A stretch of DNA of 64,000 nucleotides, from assembly GCF_000196735.1 (NCBI RefSeq), contig NC_014551.1, positions 987,001-1,051,000 of the forward strand, written 5' to 3'. Under the pieces are notes generated by a model. The model saw only the letters and a program-made list of their open reading frames with translations. It had not been told where the DNA came from and ran no database searches. This document shows positions 7,300-43,050 of this stretch, in pieces; positions within the stretch are counted from its first letter, which is position 1; every line of letters begins with the position of its first letter. A program made the translations under genes and the position numbers. This DNA comes from Bacillus amyloliquefaciens DSM 7 = ATCC 23350 (GTDB taxonomy: Bacteria > Bacillota > Bacilli > Bacillales > Bacillaceae).

Positions 7300-7354
7300 T
7301 AATATACTTTTTTTTGTATGCAACTTATGTTACGATGAAACCGAAATTCATAGT

Positions 7355-7446
7355 TACTGGGGGTGCCCGTCTGAGCGGGCTGAGAGAGAAGCGGCGGCTT
7401 CTTAACCCTTTGGACCTGATCTGGTTCGTACCAGCGTGGGGAAGTA
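7355..7446 (+). ncRNA. TPP riboswitch (THI box)
   Basis: The conserved THI-box blocks occur in order: GGGGGTGCCC, CTGAGAG, ACCCTTTGGACCTGATCTGG, and TACCAGCGTGGGGAAG. The element senses thiamine pyrophosphate and here controls thiC by premature termination through the hairpin at 7498-7526. Confidence 0.96.
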
Positions 7447-7497
7447 AAGGTTTTATTATTGTTGATGAAACAATAATAGTTTCTTTCTGACTGCAAA

Positions 7498-7539: not shown

Positions 7540-9351
<1,812 letters not shown>

Positions 9352-10855: not shown

Positions 10856-10885
10856 TTGACAGGTAGGGATTGTATGAATTAACAT
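10856..10885 (+). promoter_or_regulatory. senS-opp promoter with GGGAT element after the -35
   Basis: TTGACA (10856-10861), 18 bp, TAACAT (10880-10885). GGGAT lies at 10866-10870, four bases after the -35. The same arrangement, with GGAAT, is found at the ssu, amidohydrolase and tcyP promoters. Confidence 0.7.
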
Positions 10886-10910: not shown

Positions 10911-10964
10911 GCTGATCGGATCACCGAAGGCCCTTATCTTGTAAACAGATAAGGGCCTTTTTTG
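10911..10964 (+). promoter_or_regulatory. senS-opp leader: 21-nt hairpin element overlapping an attenuator
   Basis: The element at 10911-10931 reads GCT-GA-TCGG-ATCA-CCGA-A-GGC, a 4-bp inner and 3- to 4-bp outer stem with a GA/A internal loop. Its last GGC is the start of the terminator GGCCCTTATCT (10929-10939) / AGATAAGGGCC (10947-10957) plus seven T. The two folds exclude each other. An attenuator between promoter and senS was described for B. subtilis. The same element precedes the amidohydrolase and ssuB genes here. Confidence 0.75.
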
Positions 10965-11001
10965 CGTAAAAGCCATTGAATGAAAAGCGGAGGGATGAAA
11001 A

Positions 11002-11187
11002 GTGGCGTTACAAAAGGCAACACCAGTGCGCAAAAAGAGTAAAAAGCGAAAAAAGTACAGAAAACACACATTGAATTTCGAACTGCTTGTAGAGAAAAAC
11101 AAACGGGAGATTATGAGGAATCAAGAACAGATGGAGCAGATTTATATAAAGATAGATGAAAAGCATGCGGGGGTCCGATCAAAATGA
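11002..11187 (+). CDS. senS: SenS, small basic regulator-like protein
   Basis: A 61-residue, highly basic protein (KKSKKRKKYRKHTLNFELL, then a charged helical tail). B. subtilis SenS has 65 residues and in high copy raises extracellular enzyme expression; its mechanism is not established. A GTG start at 11002 with GGAGGG upstream is used. The stop overlaps the next ATG as ATGA, so here senS is the first cistron of the opp-type operon, whereas in B. subtilis it is described as monocistronic with an attenuator before it. That arrangement suggests its real partner is the transporter. Confidence 0.85.
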   Translation: MALQKATPVRKKSKKRKKYRKHTLNFELLVEKNKREIMRNQEQMEQIYIKIDEKHAGVRSK

Positions 11188-12911
11188 AGAGGAACACATT
11201 GAAGATAAAAACAACGGGCATCTTACTCGCGTCGTCTGTAGCCTTCATGTTATCAGGGTGCGCGTTAGGAAGTGCCGGAGAAGAAGCATCTTCTGCAACG
11301 GATAAAAAGGAAGAAACACGTATCGCCCATGTCAAAACAAAAGAATTTAAAGCTTCTCATCCTGAGGCGCTTCCCGCAAAGTCGAAAGCCAGAACCGACA
11401 CTTTTGTTGCGGGGATATCCGCGCCGGGCGGGGTATTTCTGCCGTACTTTTATGAAAACGGTTGGGACGGAAATGCGACAGATCCTATTTTTGAACCGTT
11501 AGTCAAACTGGATAAAACGGGGAAGCCCGCACCGGCTCTTGCGGAAAGCTGGAAGATTTCCAAAGATCAGCTTACCTACACGTTCCGCTTAAGAAAAAAC
11601 CTCGTTTTCAGCGACGGTTCGCCGCTGACCGCAAAGGATGTCGCATTCACTTTAACATTGCTGCATGATCCTGCATACGCGGGCTATGAAGATATCACCA
11701 CGGCTTATATTAAAGGCGGTAAGGCTTATAAAGAAGGAAAAGCAAAGACGATAGAGGGCATTCATGTCCTTGATGACAGAACCATTAAAATCACGACCGA
11801 GAAAGTCAGTGCGAAGTCGCTGCTTCTTTTGGGAGGGCAGGTGCTGTCAGAAGCCTACTACGGAAAGAATTACCGATTCGGCAAACTGGATTATTTAAAA
11901 GAGCTTTATGCCAAACCGATCGGAGCGGGACCTTATCAATTTACAGAATACCTTCCGGGACAGGAAATACGCTATCAGGCCAATGAACACTATTATTCCG
12001 GAAAACCGAAAACAGAAAAGCTGATTTATAAAATTATCGATCCGTCAACTTCCCTTCAGCTGTTTGAAACGGGTGACCTTGATTACGCTTCTTTTTCACC
12101 TGATGATGATACGGTTGAGCATTTAAAAAGCCTTGGTTTTGCGAATATCAGCGTATCTGTCGTGAATGATTACGGGCTTGTGTACGTCAATCATAAGCGT
12201 CCGCCTTTCCAAGACAAGAAAGTGTCCCAAGCGCTTATTTACGGGCTTGACCGTCAAAAAATCGTCGATGTCCGCTTTAAACGCTACGGAGAGGTCGCAA
12301 ATGTGCCGGTGTCTCCGGTTTCGTGGGCTTATAACGACAAAGGTGTCAATCCGTACACGTTTAACCCGAAAAAAGCCAAGAAGCTTCTCGATGAAGCAGG
12401 CTGGAAAACGGGAAAAGACGGCGTGCGTGAAAAAAACGGCAAAAAGCTTGAAATCAGCTATTACACCTCTAAAGCGGATGATGATTTCATCCCGATCGCG
12501 AAAGAAAATTATGCGGACATCGGAATCTCATTAAAACCGGAAGTGATGGATTTTAATACAGAGGTAGCGAAAATAAATGATAAACAGTATGATCTTGCCG
12601 CCGTTTCCACATCGCAGATTCTTGATCCGAATGACACGGTGGAAAAGCTGGCTTCCGGCCATCCCAATAATGTGACGGGATATTCCAATCCTAAAGCGGA
12701 CCGGCTGATAGAGGAAGGGGCCGGCACGCTTGATATCAGCAAAAGAAAAGAGATTTATCACCAGCTGTATCGGGAGCTCGGGGAGAATCCGCCTTACATC
12801 CTGATCCATTACCGTCAAAGCGCAAGGGCTGTCAGCGGAAAAATAAAAGGGCTTGAGCCTGACAATTATTCGGGAATCAGTTCAAGTCTCTCAAAGGTCT
12901 CAATTCAATAA
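11184..12911 (+). CDS. Peptide/nickel-type ABC transporter substrate-binding lipoprotein
   Basis: A 575-residue SBP_bac_5 (OppA/DppE-like) protein. The signal peptide ends in lipobox LSGC (Cys26), so it is a membrane-anchored lipoprotein outside the cell. Family blocks include DPIFEPLVKLDKTGKPAPALAE, LVFSDGSPLTAKDV and PIGAGPYQF. It overlaps senS by four bases and is followed by a hairpin and two permease and two ATPase genes. The ligand is an oligopeptide or similar compound; the sulfur-type leader suggests a sulfur-bearing substrate such as glutathione or Cys/Met peptides, which is inference. Confidence 0.9.
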   Translation: MKRNTLKIKTTGILLASSVAFMLSGCALGSAGEEASSATDKKEETRIAHVKTKEFKASHPEALPAKSKARTDTFVAGISAPGGVFLPYFYENGWDGNATDPIFEPLVKLDKTGKPAPALAESWKISKDQLTYTFRLRKNLVFSDGSPLTAKDVAFTLTLLHDPAYAGYEDITTAYIKGGKAYKEGKAKTIEGIHVLDDRTIKITTEKVSAKSLLLLGGQVLSEAYYGKNYRFGKLDYLKELYAKPIGAGPYQFTEYLPGQEIRYQANEHYYSGKPKTEKLIYKIIDPSTSLQLFETGDLDYASFSPDDDTVEHLKSLGFANISVSVVNDYGLVYVNHKRPPFQDKKVSQALIYGLDRQKIVDVRFKRYGEVANVPVSPVSWAYNDKGVNPYTFNPKKAKKLLDEAGWKTGKDGVREKNGKKLEISYYTSKADDDFIPIAKENYADIGISLKPEVMDFNTEVAKINDKQYDLAAVSTSQILDPNDTVEKLASGHPNNVTGYSNPKADRLIEEGAGTLDISKRKEIYHQLYRELGENPPYILIHYRQSARAVSGKIKGLEPDNYSGISSSLSKVSIQ

Positions 12912-12920
12912 AAACAATTA

Positions 12921-12954
12921 GGCAAAATACCCGGTGCATCCTGGGTATTTTGCC
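12921..12954 (+). other. Stable intercistronic hairpin between binding protein and permease genes
   Basis: GGCAAAATACCCGG (12921-12934) pairs with CCTGGGTATTTTGCC (12940-12954). Only CTTTC follows, not a T run. Such hairpins often protect the binding-protein mRNA or cause partial termination, so the lipoprotein is made in excess over the membrane components. Confidence 0.75.
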
Positions 12955-12980
12955 CTTTCAGCGGAAGGGGGAGGCTTTTT

Positions 12981-13937
12981 GTGAAACGGTATGCCGCAGA
13001 ACGATTCATACAAATGCTTGTGATCTTATTCGGTACGTCCTTTATTATTTTTTTCTTATTCGCCATGCTGCCGGGCGATTATATTGATTCGAATGTAAAC
13101 TTGACTCCGGAAAGAGCGAAGGAGCTAAAAGCGCTTTACGGCCTGGATCAGCCGATTTGGCGGCGTTATGTGACGTGGCTCGGCAATGTGTTCAGCGGAG
13201 ATTTGGGGTTTTCTTTGAAGTATCAGGAAAACGTCCTGTCGCTGCTTCAGAAATATGTCTGGAATTCGTTTTTTGTCGCGTTTCTGGCTTTGCTTATCAC
13301 ATGGTCTGCCGCGATGATAACGGGTGTCATATCCGCTGTCAGGAAATACTCATGGTTTGACGGGATCGTAACGTTTCTTGTTTTTGCTTCCATGGCATTC
13401 CCGTCTTTTTTTATCAGCCTTCTGTTTATTAAATGGTTTGGAGTGGATTTAAAAATACTGCCCGTCGGAGGGATGATTGATACCGGAAGCACGAGTTCTG
13501 GTTTTTCTTACGTGCTTGAAGCCGCCAGGCATATGATTCTCCCGGTTGTGATTTTATCTATGCTCGGCATCGGCTCGCTGACAAGATATTTCCGCTCCGG
13601 GATGCTTGATGTGATCAGGCAGGATTATATCAGAACGGCGCGGGCGAAGGGGTTGAAAGAGCGCACTGTCATTTGGAAGCATGCGTTGAAAAATGCGCTC
13701 ATTCCGGCTGTCACCCTGCTTGCTTTTGAACTGCCGGGATTGTTTTCGGGGGCCATCATTATTGAACAGATTTTCGGGTGGCCGGGTGTCGGCCGTATTC
13801 AGCTGGAATCTGTGCATTATCGGGACTACCCGGTTTTGATGGCGTTTACCTTGTTTTTGTCTTGTTTAACGATTGTTGGGAACTTCTTGGCGGATATCGC
13901 TTATGCCGCGATTGATCCGCGAGTCAGGCTGAAATAG
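12981..13937 (+). CDS. Peptide-type ABC transporter permease (OppB/DppB-like)
   Basis: A 318-residue inner-membrane permease with six predicted helices. The N-terminal block (YAAERFIQMLVILFGTSFI) and the EAA-type cytoplasmic loop (DYIRTARAKGLKERTVIWKHALKNALIP) define the DppB family, and EQIFGWPGVGR is also typical. GTG start at 12981 behind GGGGGAGG. It pairs with the permease at 13951 to form the channel of the same importer. Confidence 0.93.
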   Translation: MKRYAAERFIQMLVILFGTSFIIFFLFAMLPGDYIDSNVNLTPERAKELKALYGLDQPIWRRYVTWLGNVFSGDLGFSLKYQENVLSLLQKYVWNSFFVAFLALLITWSAAMITGVISAVRKYSWFDGIVTFLVFASMAFPSFFISLLFIKWFGVDLKILPVGGMIDTGSTSSGFSYVLEAARHMILPVVILSMLGIGSLTRYFRSGMLDVIRQDYIRTARAKGLKERTVIWKHALKNALIPAVTLLAFELPGLFSGAIIIEQIFGWPGVGRIQLESVHYRDYPVLMAFTLFLSCLTIVGNFLADIAYAAIDPRVRLK

Positions 13938-13950
13938 GGGGGATTCACGG

Positions 13951-14856
13951 ATGAAAATACAGAAAGGGACGCCGCCTTCGCTTTGGAAGCAGACGTACCG
14001 CCGCCTGCTGCATCATAAGCTGACGGTCATCAGTCTTCTGTTCTTATGTTTTATGTTTTTATTGTGTTTTATCGGGCCGTCTTTTTCTCCGTACATAACA
14101 GATCGGACGGATATTTCTAATGCCAATCAGCATCCCGGGATTCATCATTGGCTGGGGACCGACCAGTACGGGAGAGATGTGCTGACGAGGCTGATGCTGG
14201 CGGGGCAGATTTCTCTGACCGTGGGGCTTGCTTCAATGGTGCTGTCACTTGTCATCGGCTCTTTGCTCGGAGCAGCGGCCGGATTTTATCGGGGAGCCGC
14301 TGATATGATCATTATGCGCATTGCTGATATGCTCATGTCTATCCCAGGTCTGCCGCTGCTTTTGATTTTAGCTGCGGTGATGTCGGAATGGAAAGTGCCT
14401 TCTGAATACAGAATGTACTTGATTATGATGATGTTAAGTCTGATCGGGTGGCCCAGTCTGGCGCGGCTTGTGCGCGGACAGATTTTGTCGCTGAAGGAGC
14501 AGCCGTTTATGATGGCCGCGGAAGTTCTGGGGCTTAGTGATAGACGAAAAATCCTCTATCATTTGCTTCCCAATACATTGCCGTTATTACTGGTAGCCGC
14601 GACTTTGCATGTGGCGGGAGCGATGCTGAGTGAATCGGCGCTGAGTTTTCTCGGGCTTGGCGTTGCTCCGCCGACTCCTTCCTGGGGAAACATGATGGAA
14701 GCGGCGAATAATTTTATGGATTTTACACTCCGTCCGTGGCTGTGGATTCCCCCGGGAACGGCCATTTTTTTGACCGTTGTGGCGATTCATCTGCTTGGAG
14801 ACGGTTTAAGAGATGCTTTTGATCCTAAAGTAAAACGGCAGGTGAAAGTGAAATGA
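13951..14856 (+). CDS. Peptide-type ABC transporter permease (OppC/DppC-like)
   Basis: A 301-residue permease. It has the OppC N-terminal domain with HWLGTDQYGRDVLTRLMLAG, a transmembrane core and FLGLGVAPPTPSWGNMM. The EAA loop is less canonical (KEQPFMMAAEVLGLSDRRKIL). It starts 14 bp after the first permease with GGGGGG upstream and its stop overlaps the next gene's ATG. Confidence 0.93.
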   Translation: MKIQKGTPPSLWKQTYRRLLHHKLTVISLLFLCFMFLLCFIGPSFSPYITDRTDISNANQHPGIHHWLGTDQYGRDVLTRLMLAGQISLTVGLASMVLSLVIGSLLGAAAGFYRGAADMIIMRIADMLMSIPGLPLLLILAAVMSEWKVPSEYRMYLIMMMLSLIGWPSLARLVRGQILSLKEQPFMMAAEVLGLSDRRKILYHLLPNTLPLLLVAATLHVAGAMLSESALSFLGLGVAPPTPSWGNMMEAANNFMDFTLRPWLWIPPGTAIFLTVVAIHLLGDGLRDAFDPKVKRQVKVK

Positions 14857-15839
14857 AAAAACCGCTTTTAGAAGTGAGGCATTTGGAAACGGCTTTTTAT
14901 ACAGAGGAAGGCACAGTAAAGGCCGTGGATGATGTCAGCTTTACGATTCATGAGGAGGAAACGGTTTGTATTGTAGGGGAATCCGGCTGCGGGAAAAGCA
15001 TGGCGTCATTGTCCATTATGCAGCTTATTCCCGAGACGGGGAGAATCGAACGGGGAGCGGTGCATTTTTCCGGAAGAAACCTGTTGGAGCTGAAACCAAA
15101 AGAAATGCAGAAAATCCGCGGCTGCGAAATCGGTATGATTTTTCAGGAGCCGATGACCTCTTTGAATCCGGTGTTTACGATCGGTGAGCAGCTGACTGAA
15201 CCTATACGCGAACATTTATTGCTGAGTAAGAAAGAGGCGTGGCGGAAGGCAGTCGAACTGATCACGTTAGTCGAAATCCCTCATGCTGAGCAGGTCATGC
15301 ACCGATATCCCCATGAGCTGAGCGGCGGTATGCTGCAGCGCATTATGACGGCTGTCGCGCTCAGCTGCGATCCGAAACTGATCATTGCAGATGAGCCGAC
15401 GACGGCGCTTGACGTAACCATTCAGGCGCAGATATTGGATTTATTGCGGGATGTGAAAAAGCAATTTCACACGTCTATTTTATTCATTACCCATGACCTT
15501 GGCGTGGTTGCCGAAATGGCTGATTATGTGATTGTCATGTATGCGGGAAAAATTGTGGAGGAAGGACCGGTTGCGGAGATGTTTTCCGATCCGAAGCATC
15601 CGTATACGAAAGGGCTGCTCGCGGCAAAACCGGTCATCGGTCAACGAAGGGAGACGCTGTACACCATCCCGGGGCAGGTCCCTGAGCTTGCGGATCTGTC
15701 CGGATCATCTTGTTATTTTGCGGAGCGATGTGAACACAGCACGGAAATATGCCGGAGATCGAGCCCGCATTTTACTGAATTTGGGAAAGGACATCAGGCG
15801 GCGTGCTGGCTTTACAGAGAGGAGAAAGCAGATGAGTGA
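14853..15839 (+). CDS. Peptide-type ABC transporter ATPase (OppD/DppD-like)
   Basis: A 328-residue ATPase. Walker A GESGCGKS, Q-loop IFQEPMTSLNP, signature LSGGMLQR and Walker B LIIADEPTTALD are intact, and the C-terminal oligopeptide-transporter extension has the CYFAERC...C cysteine cluster. Start ATG at 14853 overlaps the permease stop (ATGA); its own end overlaps the next ATPase, so the genes are translationally coupled. Confidence 0.95.
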   Translation: MKKPLLEVRHLETAFYTEEGTVKAVDDVSFTIHEEETVCIVGESGCGKSMASLSIMQLIPETGRIERGAVHFSGRNLLELKPKEMQKIRGCEIGMIFQEPMTSLNPVFTIGEQLTEPIREHLLLSKKEAWRKAVELITLVEIPHAEQVMHRYPHELSGGMLQRIMTAVALSCDPKLIIADEPTTALDVTIQAQILDLLRDVKKQFHTSILFITHDLGVVAEMADYVIVMYAGKIVEEGPVAEMFSDPKHPYTKGLLAAKPVIGQRRETLYTIPGQVPELADLSGSSCYFAERCEHSTEICRRSSPHFTEFGKGHQAACWLYREEKADE

Positions 15840-16797
15840 TGTGTTGCTGGAGGTCAAGGGACTGAAAAAATATTATGAGGAACAAGGGGGAATGAGAAAG
15901 ACTCATAAAAAACCCGTAAAAGCGGTCGACGGCGTCAGTTTTACGATAGGAAAGGGAGAAGTGTTCGGCCTGGCGGGAGAATCGGGCAGCGGTAAGTCAT
16001 CAATCGGAAAAACGATTTTAAGGCTTCATGAGAAAACAGGGGGAGAAGTGTTTTTTCAGGGACGTGATGTGTTCCAGATGAATCGGCGCGAGCTGAAAAC
16101 ATTCAGATCGGAAGCACAGTTCATTTTCCAAGACCCCTTCAGTTCTTTAAACCCGCGGCGCCGGATCGGAGAAGCCATCGGCGAAGCGATGATCGAGCAT
16201 CAGTTGGCGGTGAAGCGGAACGCGCGTGATAAAGCGGCGGAGGTTCTTGAAGCCTGCGGTCTTTCCGCAAACTTGATCGACCGTTATCCGCACGAATTTT
16301 CCGGAGGGCAGCGGCAGCGGATCGTGATTGCTAGAGCGATGGCGCTTGAGCCGCAATTTATCATTATGGATGAACCCGTGGCGGCGCTGGATGTGTCCAT
16401 TCAGGCGCAGATGATCAATTTGTTCAGCAGCCTTCAAAAACAGCACGGGCTGTCATATTTGTTCATTTCCCACGATTTAAGCGTGGTGGAGCACTTATGT
16501 ACAAAGGTCGCCATTATGTATTTAGGGACGATTGTGGAATACGCATCAAAGGAAGAGCTTTTTTCAAGACCGCTTCACCCTTATACAATAGCACTGTTAT
16601 CAGCCGTGCCTGTTCCTGATCCCGGAGCAAAAAGGGAGCGGGTGATGTTAAAGGGCGATATTCCGAGCCCCGCTGATCCGCCCTCAGGCTGTAAATTCCG
16701 AACGAGGTGTCCGGCCGCCAAGAAGATATGTGCCGAAAAAAGTCCGCCGCTTTCCGAGAAAGGGCTTCATCATTTTGCGGCATGCCACTTTGTGTAA
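15832..16797 (+). CDS. Peptide-type ABC transporter ATPase (OppF/DppF-like)
   Basis: A 321-residue ATPase with Walker A GESGSGKS, Q-loop IFQDPFSSLNPR, signature FSGGQRQR, Walker B FIIMDEPVAALD and the C-terminal Cys-rich block (CKFRTRCPAAKKIC). The ATG at 15832 is chosen because it overlaps the previous stop and has GGAGAAAG upstream; longer in-frame extensions into the preceding gene are not credible. It closes the senS-opp operon and faces katA. Confidence 0.94.
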   Translation: MSDVLLEVKGLKKYYEEQGGMRKTHKKPVKAVDGVSFTIGKGEVFGLAGESGSGKSSIGKTILRLHEKTGGEVFFQGRDVFQMNRRELKTFRSEAQFIFQDPFSSLNPRRRIGEAIGEAMIEHQLAVKRNARDKAAEVLEACGLSANLIDRYPHEFSGGQRQRIVIARAMALEPQFIIMDEPVAALDVSIQAQMINLFSSLQKQHGLSYLFISHDLSVVEHLCTKVAIMYLGTIVEYASKEELFSRPLHPYTIALLSAVPVPDPGAKRERVMLKGDIPSPADPPSGCKFRTRCPAAKKICAEKSPPLSEKGLHHFAACHFV

Positions 16798-16834
16798 TTG
16801 AGAAAAAACGGGTTTTGTTGATAATAAACAGGAA

Positions 16835-16863
16835 AAACCTGCCGGACAGACCGGCAGGTTTCT
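16835..16863. terminator. Terminator between the opp operon and katA
   Basis: AAACCTGCCGG (16835-16845) pairs with CCGGCAGGTTT (16851-16861). A-rich on the left and T-rich on the right, it can serve both convergent units. Confidence 0.85.
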
Positions 16864-16868
16864 TGATG

Positions 16869-18314
16869 TTATTTTGGTAAGGGCAGTCCGAGTCCTTCGG
16901 CAACGCGTCTGCCGTATTCAGGATCAGCCTTGTAGAAGTGGCCGATTTGGCGCAGCTTAATTTCTTCTTTTTCCACAGGTTCCATCGCACTGACGATATT
17001 GGCGACAAGGCGTGCGCGTTCCTCCTCGCTCATCAGGCGGTACAGGTCGCCGGCTTGTGTGTAATGATCATGATGATCATAGCTTACACTGTCTGCCAAA
17101 CCTGATACAGGGTATGCCGCCTGTTTATCCTCAGGTGATTCTTTCGGTCCTCCGAAGCTGTTAGGCTCATAATAGACGGAGCGGCCGCCGTTATCGTCAA
17201 AACGCATTTGTCCGTCACGCTGATAGTTTTTCACTTCATTGCGGGAACGGTTGATCGGCAGCGCCTGATGGTTTGCGCCGACACGGTAGCGATGTGCGTC
17301 ATGATATGCGAACAATCGGCCTTGAAGCATTTTGTCAGGTGAGACGTCGATGCCCGGGACTAATGTTCCGGGAGAGAATGTCGCCTGTTCTACTTCAGCA
17401 AAGTAATTTTCCGGATTGCGGTCCAGAACCATGCGGCCGACTTCAATTAGCGGATAGTCTTTTTGAGACCATACTTTTGTGACATCAAACGGATCAAAGC
17501 GGTATGTGTTTGCGTCTTCTAACGGCATGATTTGAACATATAATTTCCATGCGGGGAAATCGCCGTTTTCAATCGCATTGAATAAATCTTCCGTATGGTA
17601 ATCAGGATTTTCGCCCGCGAGTTTTGCGGCTGTATTGACATCAAGGTTTTTCACGCCTTGTTCTGTTTTAAAGTGATATTTAATCCAGACGCCTTCGCCT
17701 TTATCATTTGTCCATTTAAATGTATGGCTTCCGAATCCGTGCATATGGCGAAGGGTTGCCGGAATGCCCCGGTCTGACATCAGAATGGTTACCTGGTGCA
17801 GTGATTCCGGTGACAGAGACCAGAAATCCCAAACGGCCGTCGGGTTTTTCAGATGTGTTCTCGGATCTCTTTTTTGTGTATGGATAAAGTCAGGGAACTT
17901 GATGGCATCACGGATGAAGAATACTGGCGTATTGTTTCCGACGATGTCGTAGTTTCCGTCTTCTGTATAAAACTTAACGGCAAATCCGCGCGGGTCGCGC
18001 ACTGTGTCACTAGAGCCCAGTTCGCCTGCAACGGTTGAGAAACGGATAAAGAGCGGTGTGCGTTTACCGACTTCTGACAGAAATGCGGCTTTCGTATATT
18101 TTGTCACGTCATTTGTGACTTCAAAATAACCGTGTGCCCCCGCGCCTTTTGCGTGAACGACACGCTCTGGAACGCGTTCTCTGTTAAAGTGCGCCAATTT
18201 CTCAAGCAGATGGACGTCTTGTATTAAAGTGGGGCCGCGATCGCCGGCCGTTATTGAGTTTTGGTTATCTCCCACAGGAGCGCCCCAGCTGGTTGTTAAT
18301 TTATTTGAACTCAT
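16869..18314 (-). CDS. katA: Vegetative catalase KatA
   Basis: A 481-residue clade-3 haem catalase that breaks down hydrogen peroxide. Visible motifs: the region with the catalytic His ([20 protein letters not shown]), [10 protein letters not shown], the Asn-bearing block ending [16 protein letters not shown], and the haem-ligand Tyr motif [14 protein letters not shown]. Start ATG at 18314 has AGAGGTG upstream. A perfect PerR box lies just upstream of its promoter, which fits peroxide induction as in B. subtilis. It sits between the opp operon and the amidohydrolase gene. Confidence 0.97.
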
Positions 18315-18342
18315 GTGATCACCTCTTTAGATTTATAAAAAT

Positions 18343-18392
18343 ATAATATCACCTATCAATAAAAAGTCAATATTATTTTATAATGATTATAA
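18343..18392 (-). promoter_or_regulatory. katA promoter and PerR box
   Basis: Reading on the minus strand, the -35 TTGACT (18365-18370) and -10 TATTAT (18343-18348) are 16 bp apart. TTATAATGATTATAA at 18378-18392 is a perfect match to the PerR consensus (TTATAATNATTATAA), just upstream of the -35. Confidence 0.9.
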
Positions 18393-18442
18393 AATAATTA
18401 TTTGTATTATCGAAATAAGGAATTTGAGTTTTGAAAGCTTGC

Positions 18443-18471
18443 TTGACTGACAGGAATAATAGGTTTAAGAT
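18443..18471 (+). promoter_or_regulatory. Amidohydrolase promoter with GGAAT element
   Basis: TTGACT (18443-18448), 17 bp, TAAGAT (18466-18471). GGAATAAT at 18453-18460 starts four bases after the -35, exactly as at the ssu promoter. Confidence 0.65.
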
Positions 18472-18488
18472 GAGAAAAAATAGCAACC

Positions 18489-18540
18489 GCTGACTTGGAC
18501 ACAAGAGGCTCTTATTCTTCATGGGATAAGGGCCTTTTTT
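18489..18540 (+). promoter_or_regulatory. Amidohydrolase leader: 21-nt hairpin element overlapping an attenuator
   Basis: Element 18489-18509 reads GCT-GA-CTTG-GACA-CAAG-A-GGC. Compared with the senS leader, the inner stem has changed from TCGG/CCGA to CTTG/CAAG with all four pairs kept. The final GGC opens the terminator GGCTCTTAT (18507-18515) / ATAAGGGCC (18526-18534) followed by six T. Confidence 0.72.
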
Positions 18541-18572
18541 CATTGTCAGGCGGTAAGGGAGGCGGCGATTGT

Positions 18573-19508
18573 ATGCTTTTCCGGCAGCATTTTAAACCTG
18601 TCGATATTCACGGTCATCTGCCGTACAGCCTTTATTTCGGCAAAAACGATAAAACATTTTCCGATTATAACCAAGAGCGTTCAGACAGAATGAATCTTAC
18701 CTGGGATTTTCCTGATCCGCGTGATGCTGATGGCGATGACGGAGAAACCCCTTTGATGACAAAGTGGGAGAATGAATTAAATAAGTACGGCATCGATGTG
18801 CTGAATTTTTTAACAGCGGAGAGCAATGACCGGATGGCGGCGTTTATTCAAGCCAATCCCGCGAAATTTACCGGATTTGCATATCACCCTTTGGAGCGGG
18901 AGGATGCGTATGAAGAGCTGAAAAGAGCGGTTGAAGAGCTCGGTTTGAGAGGGTATAAACTGTTCGGTCCGCTGACAGACATCGATTTTCATGATCCTTC
19001 GCTGAAAAAGCTTTGGACGTATTTGGCTGATAAAAGGCTGCCTGTACTCATTCACTTCGGGCTTTTAGGAAGGGCCGGGGGCATTGTCAGCCACCGCAAC
19101 ATCAATCCGCTCTCCATCTATCGCGTCGCGAGAGAGTATGCTGATATCCCGTTCATCATTCCGCATTTCGGCGCCGGATATTATCAGGAACTGCTTCAGC
19201 TGTGCTGGAGCTGCCCGAATGTGTATATTGACACGTCCGGTTCAAACCAGTGGATGAGGTGGATGCCGTATCCGCTTGATTTGGAAATTCTGTTTCGGAA
19301 GACATCCGAATTAATCGGTGCTGAACGCATCATCTTCGGGACGGATTCAAACGGTTTTCCGCGGGGATATGTATACAGATATCTTCAGGAGCAAGTCAGG
19401 ACCTGCCGGGAAATCAATATGCGGGAAGAAGATATAGAAAAAATTTTCGGAAACAATGCGCGAACATTATTGAAAATCGCCCGGCCGCAAAAGGAAGTAA
19501 ATACGTGA
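18573..19508 (+). CDS. Amidohydrolase_2 family metal-dependent hydrolase
   Basis: A 311-residue TIM-barrel protein. The N-terminal metal motif is DIHGHL (HxH), followed by IHFG near the middle, IPHFGAGY, and GTDSNGFPRG near the end: the set expected for the PF04909 family (ACMSD/4-oxalomesaconate hydratase-like enzymes). The ATG at 18573 is used, with GGGAGG upstream; an upstream in-frame start would lie inside the attenuator. It is a single-gene unit with the same promoter element and leader as ssuBACD and senS-opp, which suggests a role in using an organosulfur or related compound. The substrate is not known. Confidence 0.85.
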   Translation: MLFRQHFKPVDIHGHLPYSLYFGKNDKTFSDYNQERSDRMNLTWDFPDPRDADGDDGETPLMTKWENELNKYGIDVLNFLTAESNDRMAAFIQANPAKFTGFAYHPLEREDAYEELKRAVEELGLRGYKLFGPLTDIDFHDPSLKKLWTYLADKRLPVLIHFGLLGRAGGIVSHRNINPLSIYRVAREYADIPFIIPHFGAGYYQELLQLCWSCPNVYIDTSGSNQWMRWMPYPLDLEILFRKTSELIGAERIIFGTDSNGFPRGYVYRYLQEQVRTCREINMREEDIEKIFGNNARTLLKIARPQKEVNT

Positions 19509-19573
19509 TACAGCTGATGCGCTCTTTGGCAGGTAAATGCCGGAGAGCGTATTTTAATTCATACAAAAAACAG

Positions 19574-19603
19574 TTGACAAGTCGGAATAATTTGAATTAA
19601 CAT
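19574..19603 (+). promoter_or_regulatory. ssu operon promoter with GGAAT element
   Basis: TTGACA (19574-19579), 18 bp, TAACAT (19598-19603), the same hexamers and spacing as the senS promoter. GGAATAAT at 19584-19591 begins four bases after the -35. In B. subtilis this operon is repressed when sulfate or cysteine is plentiful. Confidence 0.75.
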
Positions 19604-19631
19604 GATATTCAAATTTAAAAACAAACGGGCA

Positions 19632-19690
19632 GCCGATCGGACCGCCGAAGGCTCCCATCTCTACAAGCAATTGGAGATGGGAGCCTTTTT
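19632..19690 (+). promoter_or_regulatory. ssu leader: 21-nt hairpin element overlapping an attenuator
   Basis: Element 19632-19652 reads GCC-GA-TCGG-ACCG-CCGA-A-GGC. The outer stem can grow through A19631-T19653 and GGG (19627-19629) with CCC. It shares GGC with the terminator GGCTCCCATCTC (19650-19661) / GAGATGGGAGCC (19674-19685) plus five T. ssuB starts 40 bp later. Confidence 0.75.
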
Positions 19691-19729: not shown

Positions 19730-20497
19730 ATGGCTGTAACCATCAGCATACAAGAAAAAGCATTTGAGCATGAAGGCCGGAAAACACCGGTGCTGAATGA
19801 TATTGAACTGTCAATTGCATCGGGAGAATTTTTGACTGTGATCGGGCCGAGCGGATGCGGCAAAAGCACGCTTTTAAAATTGATTGCCGGGCTTGATACC
19901 GATTATGAAGGCTCTGTCACAATAAACGGCCGCGATGTGTCGGGACCGGGCATCCGGCAGGGATTTATCTTTCAGGAGCATCGGCTGTTTCCCTGGCTGA
20001 CGGTAAAACAAAACATTGCTGCCGACCTCAATATCAACGACCCGGCCGTTCGTCAAAAAGTGGATGATCTGATTGAGGTTGTCAGGCTGCAGGGAGCGGA
20101 GAACGCTTATCCGCGCGAACTATCCGGCGGCATGTCGCAGCGGGTCGCCATCGCCAGAGCCCTGTTGCGTGAGCCGGAGGTGCTGCTTTTAGATGAACCG
20201 TTCGGAGCGCTTGACGCCTTTACGAGAAAACATTTGCAGGATGTGCTGCTTGATATATGGCGCGAGAAAAAAACGACGATGATTCTGGTCACGCATGATA
20301 TTGATGAATCCGTTTATTTAGGCGATAAGCTGGCGATTCTCAAGGCAAAGCCCGGCCGGCTGCACAGTCTGATGCCGATTCAGCTTCCGCATCCGCGCAA
20401 TCGTACGTCAGCTGATTTTCAGGACGTCAGGCAGAAGGTGCTTTCTGAGTTTGAGAAAACGGAAGACCTCCGGTTTGCGGATGGATCTGGAATATAG
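19730..20497 (+). CDS. ssuB: Aliphatic sulfonate ABC transporter ATPase SsuB
   Basis: A 255-residue ATPase of the nitrate/sulfonate/taurine class. Walker [10 protein letters not shown], signature LSGGMSQR and Walker [16 protein letters not shown] are intact. ATG 19730 follows AGAGGGG; an earlier in-frame ATG at 19703 has no ribosome site. It heads ssuBACD, which imports alkanesulfonates and releases sulfite from them during sulfur limitation. Confidence 0.97.
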
Positions 20498-20512: not shown

Positions 20513-21502
20513 GTGAAAAAAACCATTATTCTTTTAGCCGCAGCAGTCATGATGTTAACCGGATGCAGTGCCCACGGAGCGGGAGGGAGCGGGAAAACGG
20601 TGAAAGAAATCCGGATCGGCATCCAGCAGAGTTTAAGCCCGCTTCTCATTGCAAAGGAAAAGGGCTGGTTTGAAGAGGCCTTCAAAAAAGACGGAATAAA
20701 GGTAAAATGGGTCGAATTCCAAAGCGGTCCCCCGCAATTCGAAGGTCTTGCCGCCGATAAGCTTGATTTTTCTCAGGTCGGCAACTCACCGGTCATTTCC
20801 GGTCAAGCGGCAGGAATTGATTTTAAAGAGATCGGGCTGTCTCAGGACGGGTTAAAAGCAAACGGCATTCTTGTAAACAAAGACAGCGGGATTCAGAGCC
20901 TGCAAGAATTAAAGGGGAAAAAAATCGCCGTAGCCAAAGGCAGCAGCGGCTTTGATTTTCTCTATAAAGCGTTGGATAAAGCCGGACTTTCCGCCGATGA
21001 CGTCACCATCATCCAGCTTCAGCCTGATGAGGCGGTTTCCGCTTTCGAAAACAAATCAGTTGATGCGTGGTCCATTTGGGAACCGTATTTGTCGATTGAG
21101 ACGCTGCAGCACGGCGCGGAAATGTTGGCGAACGGAGAAAGCACAGATTTATATTCTCCCGGTTTCACGTTAGTCAGAACGGGATTTTCCAAAGAGCACC
21201 CGGATGGGGTTGTCCGTTTTCTGAAAGTGTTCAATAAGGCAGTTACATGGCAAAAGGAACATAAAGATGAAGATGTCTCCTTATATGCGAAAATCAAAAA
21301 TCTTGATCCATCAGTCGTAAGAAACGTGCTCAACAATACTGAGCCTCTCAATGAACCGATCAATGATGATATAGTCAAAGCCCAGCAGGAAACCGCGGAT
21401 TTTCAATATCAGACAAAGGCGATTCAAAAGAAAATTGATGTAAAGGACGTTGTCGACAATTCATTTATCCAAAAGGCGCTTAAAACGGGGGGCGGTAAAT
21501 AA
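20513..21502 (+). CDS. ssuA: Aliphatic sulfonate-binding lipoprotein SsuA
   Basis: A 329-residue periplasmic-binding-type lipoprotein. The signal peptide MKKTIILLAAAVMMLTGC carries lipobox LTGC. The SsuA/THI5-like fold is shown by IRIGIQQSLSPLLIAKEKG, QVGNSPVISGQAAG and AVAKGSSGFDFLYKAL. GTG start at 20513. Its TAA shares one base with the ssuC ATG. Confidence 0.96.
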   Translation: MKKTIILLAAAVMMLTGCSAHGAGGSGKTVKEIRIGIQQSLSPLLIAKEKGWFEEAFKKDGIKVKWVEFQSGPPQFEGLAADKLDFSQVGNSPVISGQAAGIDFKEIGLSQDGLKANGILVNKDSGIQSLQELKGKKIAVAKGSSGFDFLYKALDKAGLSADDVTIIQLQPDEAVSAFENKSVDAWSIWEPYLSIETLQHGAEMLANGESTDLYSPGFTLVRTGFSKEHPDGVVRFLKVFNKAVTWQKEHKDEDVSLYAKIKNLDPSVVRNVLNNTEPLNEPINDDIVKAQQETADFQYQTKAIQKKIDVKDVVDNSFIQKALKTGGGK

Positions 21503-22335
21503 TGAAAGCAGAAGCATCAACGGCTGCCGGCGCAATAAGCCAATCAGAAAAGAAAGCTCCGGCAAAGCCCCGGCGGTATTCATATCAATGGATGAAAGGG
21601 GTTGTACTCCCGGCTGCGGTCATCGCAGTATGGCAGTTTATCGCAAGTCTGGGCATCGTCTCAGCCACGGTGCTCCCGTCACCTGTCATCATTTTGCAGA
21701 CTTTTCAGGAACTTCTTCTGTCAGGAGAGCTTTGGGGTCATTTAGAGATCAGCTTATACCGGGCGGCTGCCGGATTTCTGCTTGGTGCTGGCCTCGGACT
21801 TGTTTTCGGGCTGCTGGTCGGTTTCTCAAAACGGACGGAAGCCTATCTTGATCCGTCTCTGCAAATGCTCAGAACTGTTCCGCACTTGGCTGTGACTCCG
21901 CTGTTTATTTTGTGGTTCGGATTTGATGAGACTTCAAAAATTCTGCTGATCGCATTGGGGGCTTTTTTCCCCGTGTATATTAATACGTTTCTCGGCATCC
22001 GCGGTGTGGACGCGAAGCTGTTTGATGTCGCAAGGGTGCTGGAATTTAACTGGTATCAGCAGATGACGAAATTGATTCTTCCGGCTTCCCTGCCGAATAT
22101 ACTGCTCGGCATCAGGCTCTCTCTCGGTATTGCGTGGCTCGGTCTTGTGGTGGCGGAACTTATGGGATCGAGTGAGGGCGTCGGCTATATGATTATGGAT
22201 GCGAGACAATTTTCACAGACAAATAAGGTGTTTGTCGGCATTATCATTTTTGCGGCTGTCGGCAAGCTGACAGATGCGCTGGTCAGAATGCTCGAACGGA
22301 AACTCTTAAAATGGCGGAACAGTTATGAAGGATAA
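21502..22335 (+). CDS. ssuC: Aliphatic sulfonate ABC transporter permease SsuC
   Basis: A 277-residue permease with about six helices. The EAA-type loop is [20 protein letters not shown] and the C-terminal block [23 protein letters not shown] is typical of SsuC/TauC. A hydrophilic 30-residue N-terminus precedes the first helix. It overlaps ssuA by one base (TAATG). Confidence 0.96.
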
Positions 22336-22358: not shown

Positions 22359-23489
22359 ATGGAAATTCTTTGGTTTATTCCGACGCATGGAGACGGCCGG
22401 TATTTAGGGACGCAAACGGGAGGTAGAACGGCGGATCATCTTTATTTTAAGCAAGTGGCGCAGGCGGCAGACAGACTCGGATATACGGGGGTTCTTTTGC
22501 CGACGGGGAGGTCATGTGAAGACCCGTGGCTGACGGCTGCGGCTTTAGCGGGAGAAACGAGGGATTTAAAATTTTTAGTGGCGGTCCGCCCGGGATTGAT
22601 GCAGCCATCTGTCGCCGCGAGAATGGCGTCGACAATGGACCGGCTCTCAGACGGCCGTTTGCTCGTAAATGTCGTAGCGGGCGGAGACCCTTATGAACTG
22701 GCGGGAGACGGCATGTTTATCAGTCACGATGAACGTTATAAGGCGACTGAAGAATTTTTGACCGTCTGGCGCGGACTCATGCGGGGCGAAACGGTGACAT
22801 ATGAAGGGGACCATATTAAAGTGGAAAACAGCAATCTGCTGTTTTCGCCAAAACAGACACCGCATCCCCCATTATATTTCGGCGGTTCATCACAAGCGGG
22901 AATTGAGGCTGCGGTGAAACATACAGATGTGTATTTAACATGGGGGGAGCCGCCGGAGCAGGTAAAAGAAAAGATTGAAACCGTTAAAAAACAGGCCGCC
23001 AAAGAAGGAAGGACGATGCGTTTTGGCATCAGGCTTCACGTGATTGTCCGGGAGACAGAAGAAGAGGCATGGGAAGCAGCTGAACGATTAATCAGCCATT
23101 TAGACGAAGAGACGATTGCGAAAGCGCAGGCTGCGCTGCGACGCGCTGATTCTTCAGGACAAAAACGGATGGCCGATCTTCATAACGGTGACCGGACGAA
23201 GCTTGAGATCAGCCCGAATCTCTGGGCCGGCATCGGGCTGGTCAGAGGCGGAGCGGGCACGGCGCTTGTCGGTGACCCGCAGACCGTCGCTGATCGTATT
23301 TTAGAGTATCAGGCACTCGGCATTGAGTCGTTCATCTTTTCTGGCTACCCGCATCTGGAAGAAGCTTATTATCTGGCTGAGCTTGTTTTTCCGCTTCTGC
23401 CGTTTCAGAATGAGCGGACTAAAAAACTTGAGCACCGACTGGGCGAAGCAATGGGCAACGACCATTTTGCAAAGCGACGGTCTGAATAA
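22359..23489 (+). CDS. ssuD: FMNH2-dependent alkanesulfonate monooxygenase SsuD
   Basis: A 376-residue luciferase-fold enzyme that splits alkanesulfonates into aldehyde and sulfite. It begins [18 protein letters not shown] and has the flavin-site blocks [32 protein letters not shown] and [12 protein letters not shown] 22359 follows AAAAGGAGAG. Enzyme of the ssu operon; needs an FMN reductase encoded elsewhere. Confidence 0.97.
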
Positions 23490-42524: not shown

Positions 42525-42560
42525 AAAAAAACCTGCCGGCGTACACCGGCAGGTTTTTTA
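42525..42560 (-). terminator. Terminator for cspB
   Basis: AAAAACCTGCCGG pairs with CCGGCAGGTTTTT. On the minus strand it follows the cspB stop at 42567. Confidence 0.88.
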
Positions 42561-42566
42561 AGACAT

Positions 42567-43050
<484 letters not shown>

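Follow-up and report, generated by a model that had tools for sequence, protein, structure and literature searches.

The 64,000-nucleotide stretch of Bacillus amyloliquefaciens DSM 7 that was analysed here (contig NC_014551.1, positions 987,001 to 1,051,000; referred to below as the window) contains three neighbouring operons, consisting respectively of senS with a series of oligopeptide-type transporter genes, an amidohydrolase gene, and the ssu genes. Each is preceded by a promoter-like sequence, a 21-nucleotide hairpin and an intrinsic terminator that begins within that hairpin (Table 1). The hairpin is very likely the antiterminator of a sulfur regulon that extends well beyond this species, and the small protein YezD, a member of family DUF2292, is the best candidate for its partner.

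Table 1. Features of the three leaders and of the genes behind them, in window coordinates
Feature	Position	Strand	Basis or remark
Promoter-like TTGACA-18-TAACAT, leader 1	10856..10885	+	sequence; contains GGTAGGGATTGTATGAATTAA, resembling ssu and yezD upstream regions
Antiterminator hairpin (putative) copy 1, senS-opp leader, GCTGATCGGATCACCGAAGGC	10911..10931	+	folding, covariance model
Intrinsic terminator, leader 1; left arm starts with hairpin GGC	10929..10963	+	folding
senS, small basic protein of 61 amino acids	11002..11187	+	Pfam FbpB family PF13040
Oligopeptide-type ATP-binding cassette (ABC) substrate-binding protein (SBP_bac_5), first of opp-like genes reaching 16797	11184..12911	+	
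Promoter-like TTGACT-17-TAAGAT, leader 2	18443..18471	+	sequence
Antiterminator hairpin (putative) copy 2, CTTG/CAAG stem, GCTGACTTGGACACAAGAGGC	18489..18509	+	folding, covariance model
Intrinsic terminator, leader 2	18507..18540	+	folding
Amidohydrolase (Amidohydro_2)	18573..19508	+	family match
Promoter-like TTGACA-18-TAACAT, leader 3, with CGGAATAATTTGAATTAA	19574..19603	+	sequence
Antiterminator hairpin (putative) copy 3, ssu leader, GCCGATCGGACCGCCGAAGGC	19632..19652	+	folding, covariance model
Intrinsic terminator, leader 3	19650..19690	+	folding
ssuB, ABC ATPase (ABC_tran)	19730..20497	+	name ssuB given by position
ssuA, NMT1-type substrate-binding protein	20513..21502	+	
ssuC, ABC permease (BPD_transp_1)	21502..22335	+	
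ssuD, luciferase-like monooxygenase	22359..23489	+	

All three copies follow a single plan, in which three outer pairs are separated by an internal loop of GA opposite A from four inner pairs and a four-base loop, and both the positions and the structure assigned to them by an initial annotation of the window were confirmed. Copies 1 and 2 differ at eight of 21 bases and exchange three pairs of the inner stem (T-A to C-G, C-G to T-A and G-C to T-A), which agrees with the compensatory changes described in that annotation; its statement that the outermost pair alternates between G-C and A-T was mistaken, that pair being G-C in all three window copies, and the alternation was found one position outside the 21-mer, where copy 2 is unpaired. 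In all three leaders the terminal GGC of the hairpin is also the foot of the terminator's left arm, again as claimed at the outset. The terminators of leaders 1, 2 and 3 have stems of 11, 12 and 14 pairs, with a T run after each, and folding of the leaders, with 5' ends guessed from the promoters, indicated that forcing the hairpin costs 8.7, 7.4 and 3.5 kcal/mol, respectively, relative to the terminator fold. Because the hairpin is the costlier structure, the terminator is the predicted default.

When the letters of the internal loop are left free, the plan of hairpin plus terminator occurs 14 times in the window, three of these occurrences carrying GA/A, as compared with means of 4.2 overall and 0.05 with GA/A (maximum one) in 20 dinucleotide shuffles of the same DNA. 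A search of the window leaders against Rfam 15 returned no family at gathering score and only weak matches far below the curated cut-offs, in line with the initial annotation, which knew of no described riboswitch with this pattern; no known leader family, including the LicT/SacY ribonucleic antiterminator (RAT), was matched by the hairpin.

Distribution, covariation and downstream genes

The initial annotation had presented the element as a property of three neighbouring operons; it is present in each of them, but that scope proved too narrow, the hairpin being widespread across genomes. A search with SsuA of 44 genomes from the genus identified 26 loci besides the window (L032-L057) that encode a close relative (at least 69% identity), and the hairpin is present in all 26; its terminator was scored by script for 23 of them and identified by eye for the other three (L047, L048 and L051). 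The same 44 genomes were searched with a covariance model (R1) built from eight copies, and 36 of 40 site stretches were read: the real sites precede genes for sulfate transporters, an FbpA-like gene with yezD behind it, a taurine-dioxygenase-like gene, MetQN-like genes, and genes for an oxidoreductase and a ferredoxin, and the weak matches within coding sequence or plain terminators (for example L104, L106, L113-L119 and L126-L128) were judged false.

A second model (R2), built from 13 varied copies and applied with E-value cut-offs of 0.05, 0.01, 0.003 and 0.001 at the level of family, order, class and phylum, matched 65 of 80, 133 of 397, 110 of 299 and 22 of 249 genomes, respectively; these tallies include some false matches (G037, and G611, whose hit was judged a false hairpin once the locus had been read) and miss hairpins with five-base loops. 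The 22 genomes at the level of phylum comprise the window's own genome, three class genomes already counted and 18 from outside the class. Among 16 outside-class loci that were read (L407-L410, L413-L419 and L421-L425), nine passed the terminator test by script (L408-L410, L413, L416, L417, L421, L424 and L425, the T run of L409 being distant). In L414, L419 and L422, seven or eight bases in the 3' half of the hairpin are complementary to a downstream arm that is followed by a T run, an arrangement that is read here as a deeper overlap of hairpin and terminator, of a type unscored by the script. Judged by eye only, most of the outside-class hairpins are followed by genes of a sulfur type (cysK-like, ATP-sulfurylase-like, ABC-transporter or other), with L409, L410 and L421 as exceptions. 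At L413, in a distant Bacillota genome, the hairpin lies upstream of what appears by eye to be a nitrogenase-like protein, which we presume may be a methylthio-alkane reductase involved in sulfur salvage.

The overlap between hairpin and terminator was examined in two further samples. Among distinct loci of the best-scoring model hits, a terminator starts in the 3' arm of the hairpin in 76 of 77, versus 29 of 385 positions drawn at random from those loci. A scan of named genomes for the exact pattern recovered at least 119 loci, sorted by record title into 40 from Bacilli and 79 others; among the matches listed, the overlap was found in 37 of the 40 Bacilli loci (L308, L340 and L403 lacking a terminator) versus none of the 79 others, a control that is imperfectly matched in that many of its members are GC-rich and T-run terminators are rare there. 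Named genomes with the pattern, again among the matches listed, include those of Bacillus velezensis, B. mojavensis, B. pumilus, Priestia, Niallia, Neobacillus, Brevibacillus, Paenibacillus, Alicyclobacillus and Aneurinibacillus.

Covariation was assessed in 233 scripted hairpins with an overlapping terminator, taken from loci L061-L287 and the window, of which six were dropped by eye as off-consensus to leave 227 hairpins representing 103 distinct sequences. In these 103, 99.7% of the cells are paired, six of the seven pairs have changed on both sides (122 such cells), and the covariation score reaches 0.601, versus 0.304 after shuffling and 0.064-0.217 for slid pairings, so that the covariation anticipated for homologues is indeed strong. 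The two-sided changes and the slid control carry most weight, because the model and the script both require pairing and the GA/A letters; for the same reason the invariance of GA and A throughout the set reflects how it was collected. The consensus is mostly GCY-GA-YNNG-WNNR-CNNR-A-GGC, and in nearly all hairpins the first loop base is A or T, the second A, C or T, the third unrestricted and the fourth A or G. In 15 of the 227 hairpins column 20 is a base other than G, and in all of them both of its partners have changed along with it, inclusion having demanded at least two of the three terminator pairs. Conservation is limited to positions 1-21, the preceding stretch from -45 to -1 being merely A-rich across 203 contexts. 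A promoter was recognized upstream of 107 of the 233 hairpins, and in 63 of these it ends 20-30 nucleotides before the hairpin, which often leaves little room for a larger aptamer. Tandem hairpin-terminator units, some with different stems, were seen before a single operon in L134, L138, L144, L185, L192, L194, L195 and L456; such an arrangement suggests a steeper switch.

The genes that follow the hairpin belong mostly to sulfur metabolism. An open reading frame (ORF) lies downstream of 226 hairpins, and for 199 of them it falls into one of 21 gene clusters, of which 14 were named by family searches of representatives and six were judged by eye only; the representative of the remaining cluster noted individually, that of L151, gave no Pfam match. 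The named clusters encode a sulfonate-binding protein, a sulfate-binding protein, a TauE/SafE permease, dimethylsulfone monooxygenase, flavin mononucleotide (FMN) reductase, 3'-phosphoadenosine-5'-phosphosulfate (PAPS) reductase, ATP sulfurylase, a sulfate permease, threonine synthase, FbpA and an OscA-like/DUF2292 protein, together with an Rrf2 regulator (CymR-like) and taurine dioxygenase, both below cut-off, and FbpB, below the NCBIfam cut-off, SenS itself matching the Pfam FbpB family. Homologous hairpins thus stand mostly before sulfate, sulfonate, taurine, cysH/sat, cysK-like and MetQN genes. Taken with the covariation and the negative Rfam search, this context supports the suggestion, made when the element was first noticed, that it senses a ligand or a protein, acts by antitermination and is tied to sulfur supply.

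Several smaller observations concern the same genes. A family of approximately 100-125 amino acids, with the motif LPDL-FF--C-QQY-INRG--NTID-WFY by eye, adjoins yezD or sits behind the hairpin (L239, L151, L177, L438 and L455; a cluster of eight hairpins). FbpA-like small basic proteins are encoded directly behind a hairpin of their own in L166, L179 and L200, and the Fur-controlled FbpA/B/C set may have a counterpart for sulfur. Rrf2 (CymR-like) regulators follow the hairpin in L190, L193, L159 and L248 (a cluster of five hairpins), and a CymR-like repressor may itself be under antitermination control. A GGAAT-type box was found within 110 nucleotides upstream of 83 of the 233 hairpins, versus 27 of 233 shuffled upstream regions; the sequences upstream of yezD in L438 and L439 resemble this GGAAT-box, ssu type of promoter, and yezD is perhaps controlled by CymR. 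A legend in PMC3519770 places ssuB among the B. cereus promoters aligned for a CymR motif.

Elsewhere in the window, four Rfam matches reach gathering score, all of them outside the three leaders. They include a thiamine pyrophosphate (TPP) riboswitch at 7349-7459, upstream of an ORF at 7579-9351 that is thiC-like by eye; a cspA thermoregulator match at 42526-42870 on the minus strand scores 79.5 bits, barely above the Rfam cut-off of 78.

YezD and the search for a protein partner

SenS was the first suspected partner because it is very basic and its gene lies behind its own hairpin. Its family (PF13040) is present in 24 of 24 genus and order genomes tested (G000 and 23 hairpin genomes without FbpA) and in only three of 53 class-level hairpin genomes; SenS was accordingly rejected as a general partner and appears to be a regulated gene, though it may act as a partner within the order. 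FbpA (PF13076) is found at the level of order in 98 of 133 hairpin genomes versus 143 of 264 others (p 0.0002), and was likewise rejected as a general partner, being present in only four of 53 class-level hairpin genomes.

The distribution of YezD (DUF2292, PF10055) follows that of the hairpin far more closely. The family is present in 71 of 75 hairpin genomes versus 15 of 85 others (Fisher p 5e-25, uncorrected for relatedness), a comparison in which G027 and G037, with weak model hits, were counted as hairpin-negative. It consists of a class-level set, with 40 of 43 hairpin genomes (41 from the class, G000 and G035) versus two of 37 others, and of a genus and order set, with 31 of 32 (one of the 31 copies, in G019, being decayed) versus 13 of 48, only eight of those 13 being intact. 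The family was also reported in Bacillus subtilis, the named control of the search. In nine of nine hairpin-negative genomes with an intact yezD, a hairpin missed by the model was found near that gene, and in eight of them it has a five-nucleotide loop, as detected by script: immediately behind yezD, with cysH following, in G005, G029, G110 and G131; immediately behind yezD in G027, G037 and G102; and 174 nucleotides further on in G089. The ninth, in G489, is a four-base-loop hairpin after yezD with a weak T run, recognized by eye. Marginal or fragmentary YezD matches among hairpin-negative genomes were noted in G464, G106, G017, G020, G021 and G028.

The two elements are also physically linked. 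Among 72 distinct yezD genes in the collected loci, 53 have a hairpin within 900 nucleotides (46 downstream and 10 upstream, including three with both), a count biased by the fact that most loci were fetched for the hairpin. In 39 of the 46 downstream cases, of which one (L292) is off-consensus, the hairpin starts between -5 and 30 nucleotides from the yezD stop codon. The loci fetched instead with YezD were the best 12 of 53 places and included five from one species group; all 12 contain a hairpin within 500 nucleotides, and in 11 it lies downstream on the same strand. In a group of related genus genomes (G017, G019, G020, G021, G022 and G028), hairpins, operons and yezD appear to decay together, as fragments and genes with stops, in what is possibly a natural co-loss.

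YezD is mostly 45-70 amino acids in length, and residues G, Q, K and R are invariant across 44 sequences; for the copy in the window's genome, a helix and a beta hairpin are predicted (predicted local distance difference test score, pLDDT, 82). Plasmid-borne copies were found in 11 records, only from Priestia, Niallia and Paenibacillus. The YezD of one hairpin operon matches the NCBIfam OscA model at 27.9 bits (E 1.7e-6), under the equivalog cut-off of 85 bits. Published passages present OscA as a small protein whose function is unknown and whose gene forms one unit with a sulfate-binding protein gene; oscA inactivation renders Pseudomonas corrugata chromate-sensitive, and a cited title ties OscA to the sulphur starvation response (PMC2996968, PMC3596284). 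The B. subtilis yezD gene is described as being of unknown function and upregulated in deep starvation, its deletion causing no loss of viability there (PMC6385201). A search of the literature, subscription journals being mostly outside its reach, found no description of the hairpin and no function for YezD.

A model for the switch and its alternatives

These observations are best explained by a mechanism in which the 21-nucleotide hairpin would be both the antiterminator and the recognition element of a sulfur-starvation regulon in Bacilli and other Bacillota. By default, the nascent leader would form the terminator, which would take the last three bases of the hairpin, and transcription would stop. 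When sulfur is scarce, a trans-acting factor would hold the hairpin, which presents a GA/A internal loop and a small loop four pairs away; the terminator would thereby be deprived of the base that adjoins the T run, allowing RNA polymerase to read on into genes for sulfate, sulfonate, taurine and methionine uptake and into cys genes. The most likely trans-acting factor would be YezD, as a DUF2292 protein distantly related to the sulfur-starvation protein OscA, and in Bacillus the yezD and ssu genes, with their similar upstream regions, may be derepressed together, perhaps by CymR. That YezD is the hairpin's partner is the best-supported mechanism and is held here to be probable, if by a modest measure; we infer the binding of RNA by YezD, the direction of the switch and the sulfur signal, whereas the element itself, its covariation, its overlap with the terminator, the genes around it and its association with YezD were observed.

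A number of observations weigh against a role for YezD as the partner. Its predicted fold gave no convincing structural relative, and no solved relative, in a structure comparison; 19 of the 72 yezD genes have no hairpin within 900 nucleotides in the DNA covered, among them the yezD of the window's genome (L438), of the B. subtilis-like G035 (L439) and of G001 (L457). G022 has kept its hairpins with a yezD that carries one stop, and three hairpin-scoring genomes lack YezD altogether (G472, G527 and G103, the hairpin having been read in G527 only); the fourth such genome is G611, with its false hairpin. An absence of sulfate or sulfonate uptake may itself explain why some genomes have neither hairpin nor YezD. 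G036 appears to be the single case against the two merely tracking sulfate assimilation, having full-length cysH, cysP and sat matches (96-97%) with no hairpin at the R2 threshold and no YezD, although a five-base-loop hairpin elsewhere in that genome would be possible; in G039, CysH was not found in the stretches read.

Such observations would also fit a protein-dependent antiterminator with another partner, whether CymR, an Rrf2 protein or an RNA-binding protein, YezD then being a mere regulated effector like SenS and the FbpA-like proteins. SenS/FbpB and FbpA, which are themselves encoded behind the hairpin and are not general partners, demonstrate that membership of the regulon proves nothing; CymR-like Rrf2 genes occupy the same position in some genomes, and the 10 of 72 yezD genes that follow a hairpin behave as expected of a regulated gene. 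Against this stand the much closer correspondence of YezD with the hairpin than of the two other small proteins tested, and the position of most linked yezD genes immediately before a hairpin-terminator, in loci mostly fetched for the hairpin; another partner is accordingly considered unlikely, though it is the foremost alternative.

A minimal riboswitch, in which a starvation metabolite such as O-acetylserine binds the GA/A internal loop and stabilizes the hairpin, would account for the constancy of those letters (required by the script), for hairpins in genomes where the SenS and FbpA families are absent, and for the few hairpin genomes without YezD. The conserved information is, however, confined to the hairpin, with no conserved flank. 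We know of no natural aptamer as small as 21 nucleotides, and protein sites typically combine a fixed spacing between internal loop and terminal loop with a loop whose sequence varies; size and spacing both argue against a riboswitch, which is regarded as quite improbable. Still further down the scale, and scarcely credible, is the notion that these are ordinary terminators, that the hairpin upstream is decorative and that no regulation takes place: terminators are common, and here the terminator is the stable default fold, but wide conservation, covariation, the context of sulfur genes, and an overlap in 76 of 77 loci, compared with none of the 79 control loci among the matches listed, are all at odds with it.

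If the mechanism with YezD as partner were true, it would explain termination-level control of sulfur assimilation in a large bacterial class, would provide a first function for an uncharacterised protein family tied to sulfur starvation, and would place what was long ago observed for the ssu leader within a whole regulon, the hairpin being a very small, portable RNA switch. The B. subtilis ssu operon was reportedly found by van der Ploeg et al. in 2001 to be regulated at both initiation and termination; to our knowledge, no common hairpin, regulon or trans-acting factor has been described for that leader. The S-box, which senses S-adenosylmethionine (SAM), and T-box leaders similarly control sulfur and amino-acid genes through termination, but they contain large aptamers, in contrast to the 21 nucleotides seen here, and have no Rfam match in the window leaders. 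In B. methanolicus, ssu and metNPQ genes are listed as preceded by a SAM element together with a PyrR site (PMC4342826).

A broader proposal, on which opinion is evenly poised, is that DUF2292 (YezD/OscA) constitutes an unrecognised family of RNA-binding antiterminators that forms, with the 21-nucleotide hairpin, a sulfur-starvation switch across Bacillota, and that proteobacterial OscA may act likewise. The passages available on OscA mention no RNA role (PMC2996968, PMC3596284). In Pseudomonas, oscA too precedes a sulfate-binding protein gene; the YezD match to the OscA model is weak.

The closest mechanistic parallels are found among established antiterminators. The RAT of LicT, SacY and GlcT is a small hairpin, some of its bases unpaired, whose sequence overlaps the 5' foot of an intrinsic terminator, and its bound state is the ON state; the overlap of hairpin and terminator is alike in the two systems, whereas the RAT measures approximately 29 nucleotides rather than 21, its sequence and loops differ, and the element described here stands before sulfur genes and matches no Rfam family. 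In the hut operon, hutP, the gene for a small RNA-binding protein, comes first and is followed by a terminator and then by the enzymes. HutP is larger than YezD and binds NAG repeats, whereas the candidate target of YezD is a structured hairpin; the layout, with the gene located just before a hairpin-terminator, is one in which yezD is often found as well.

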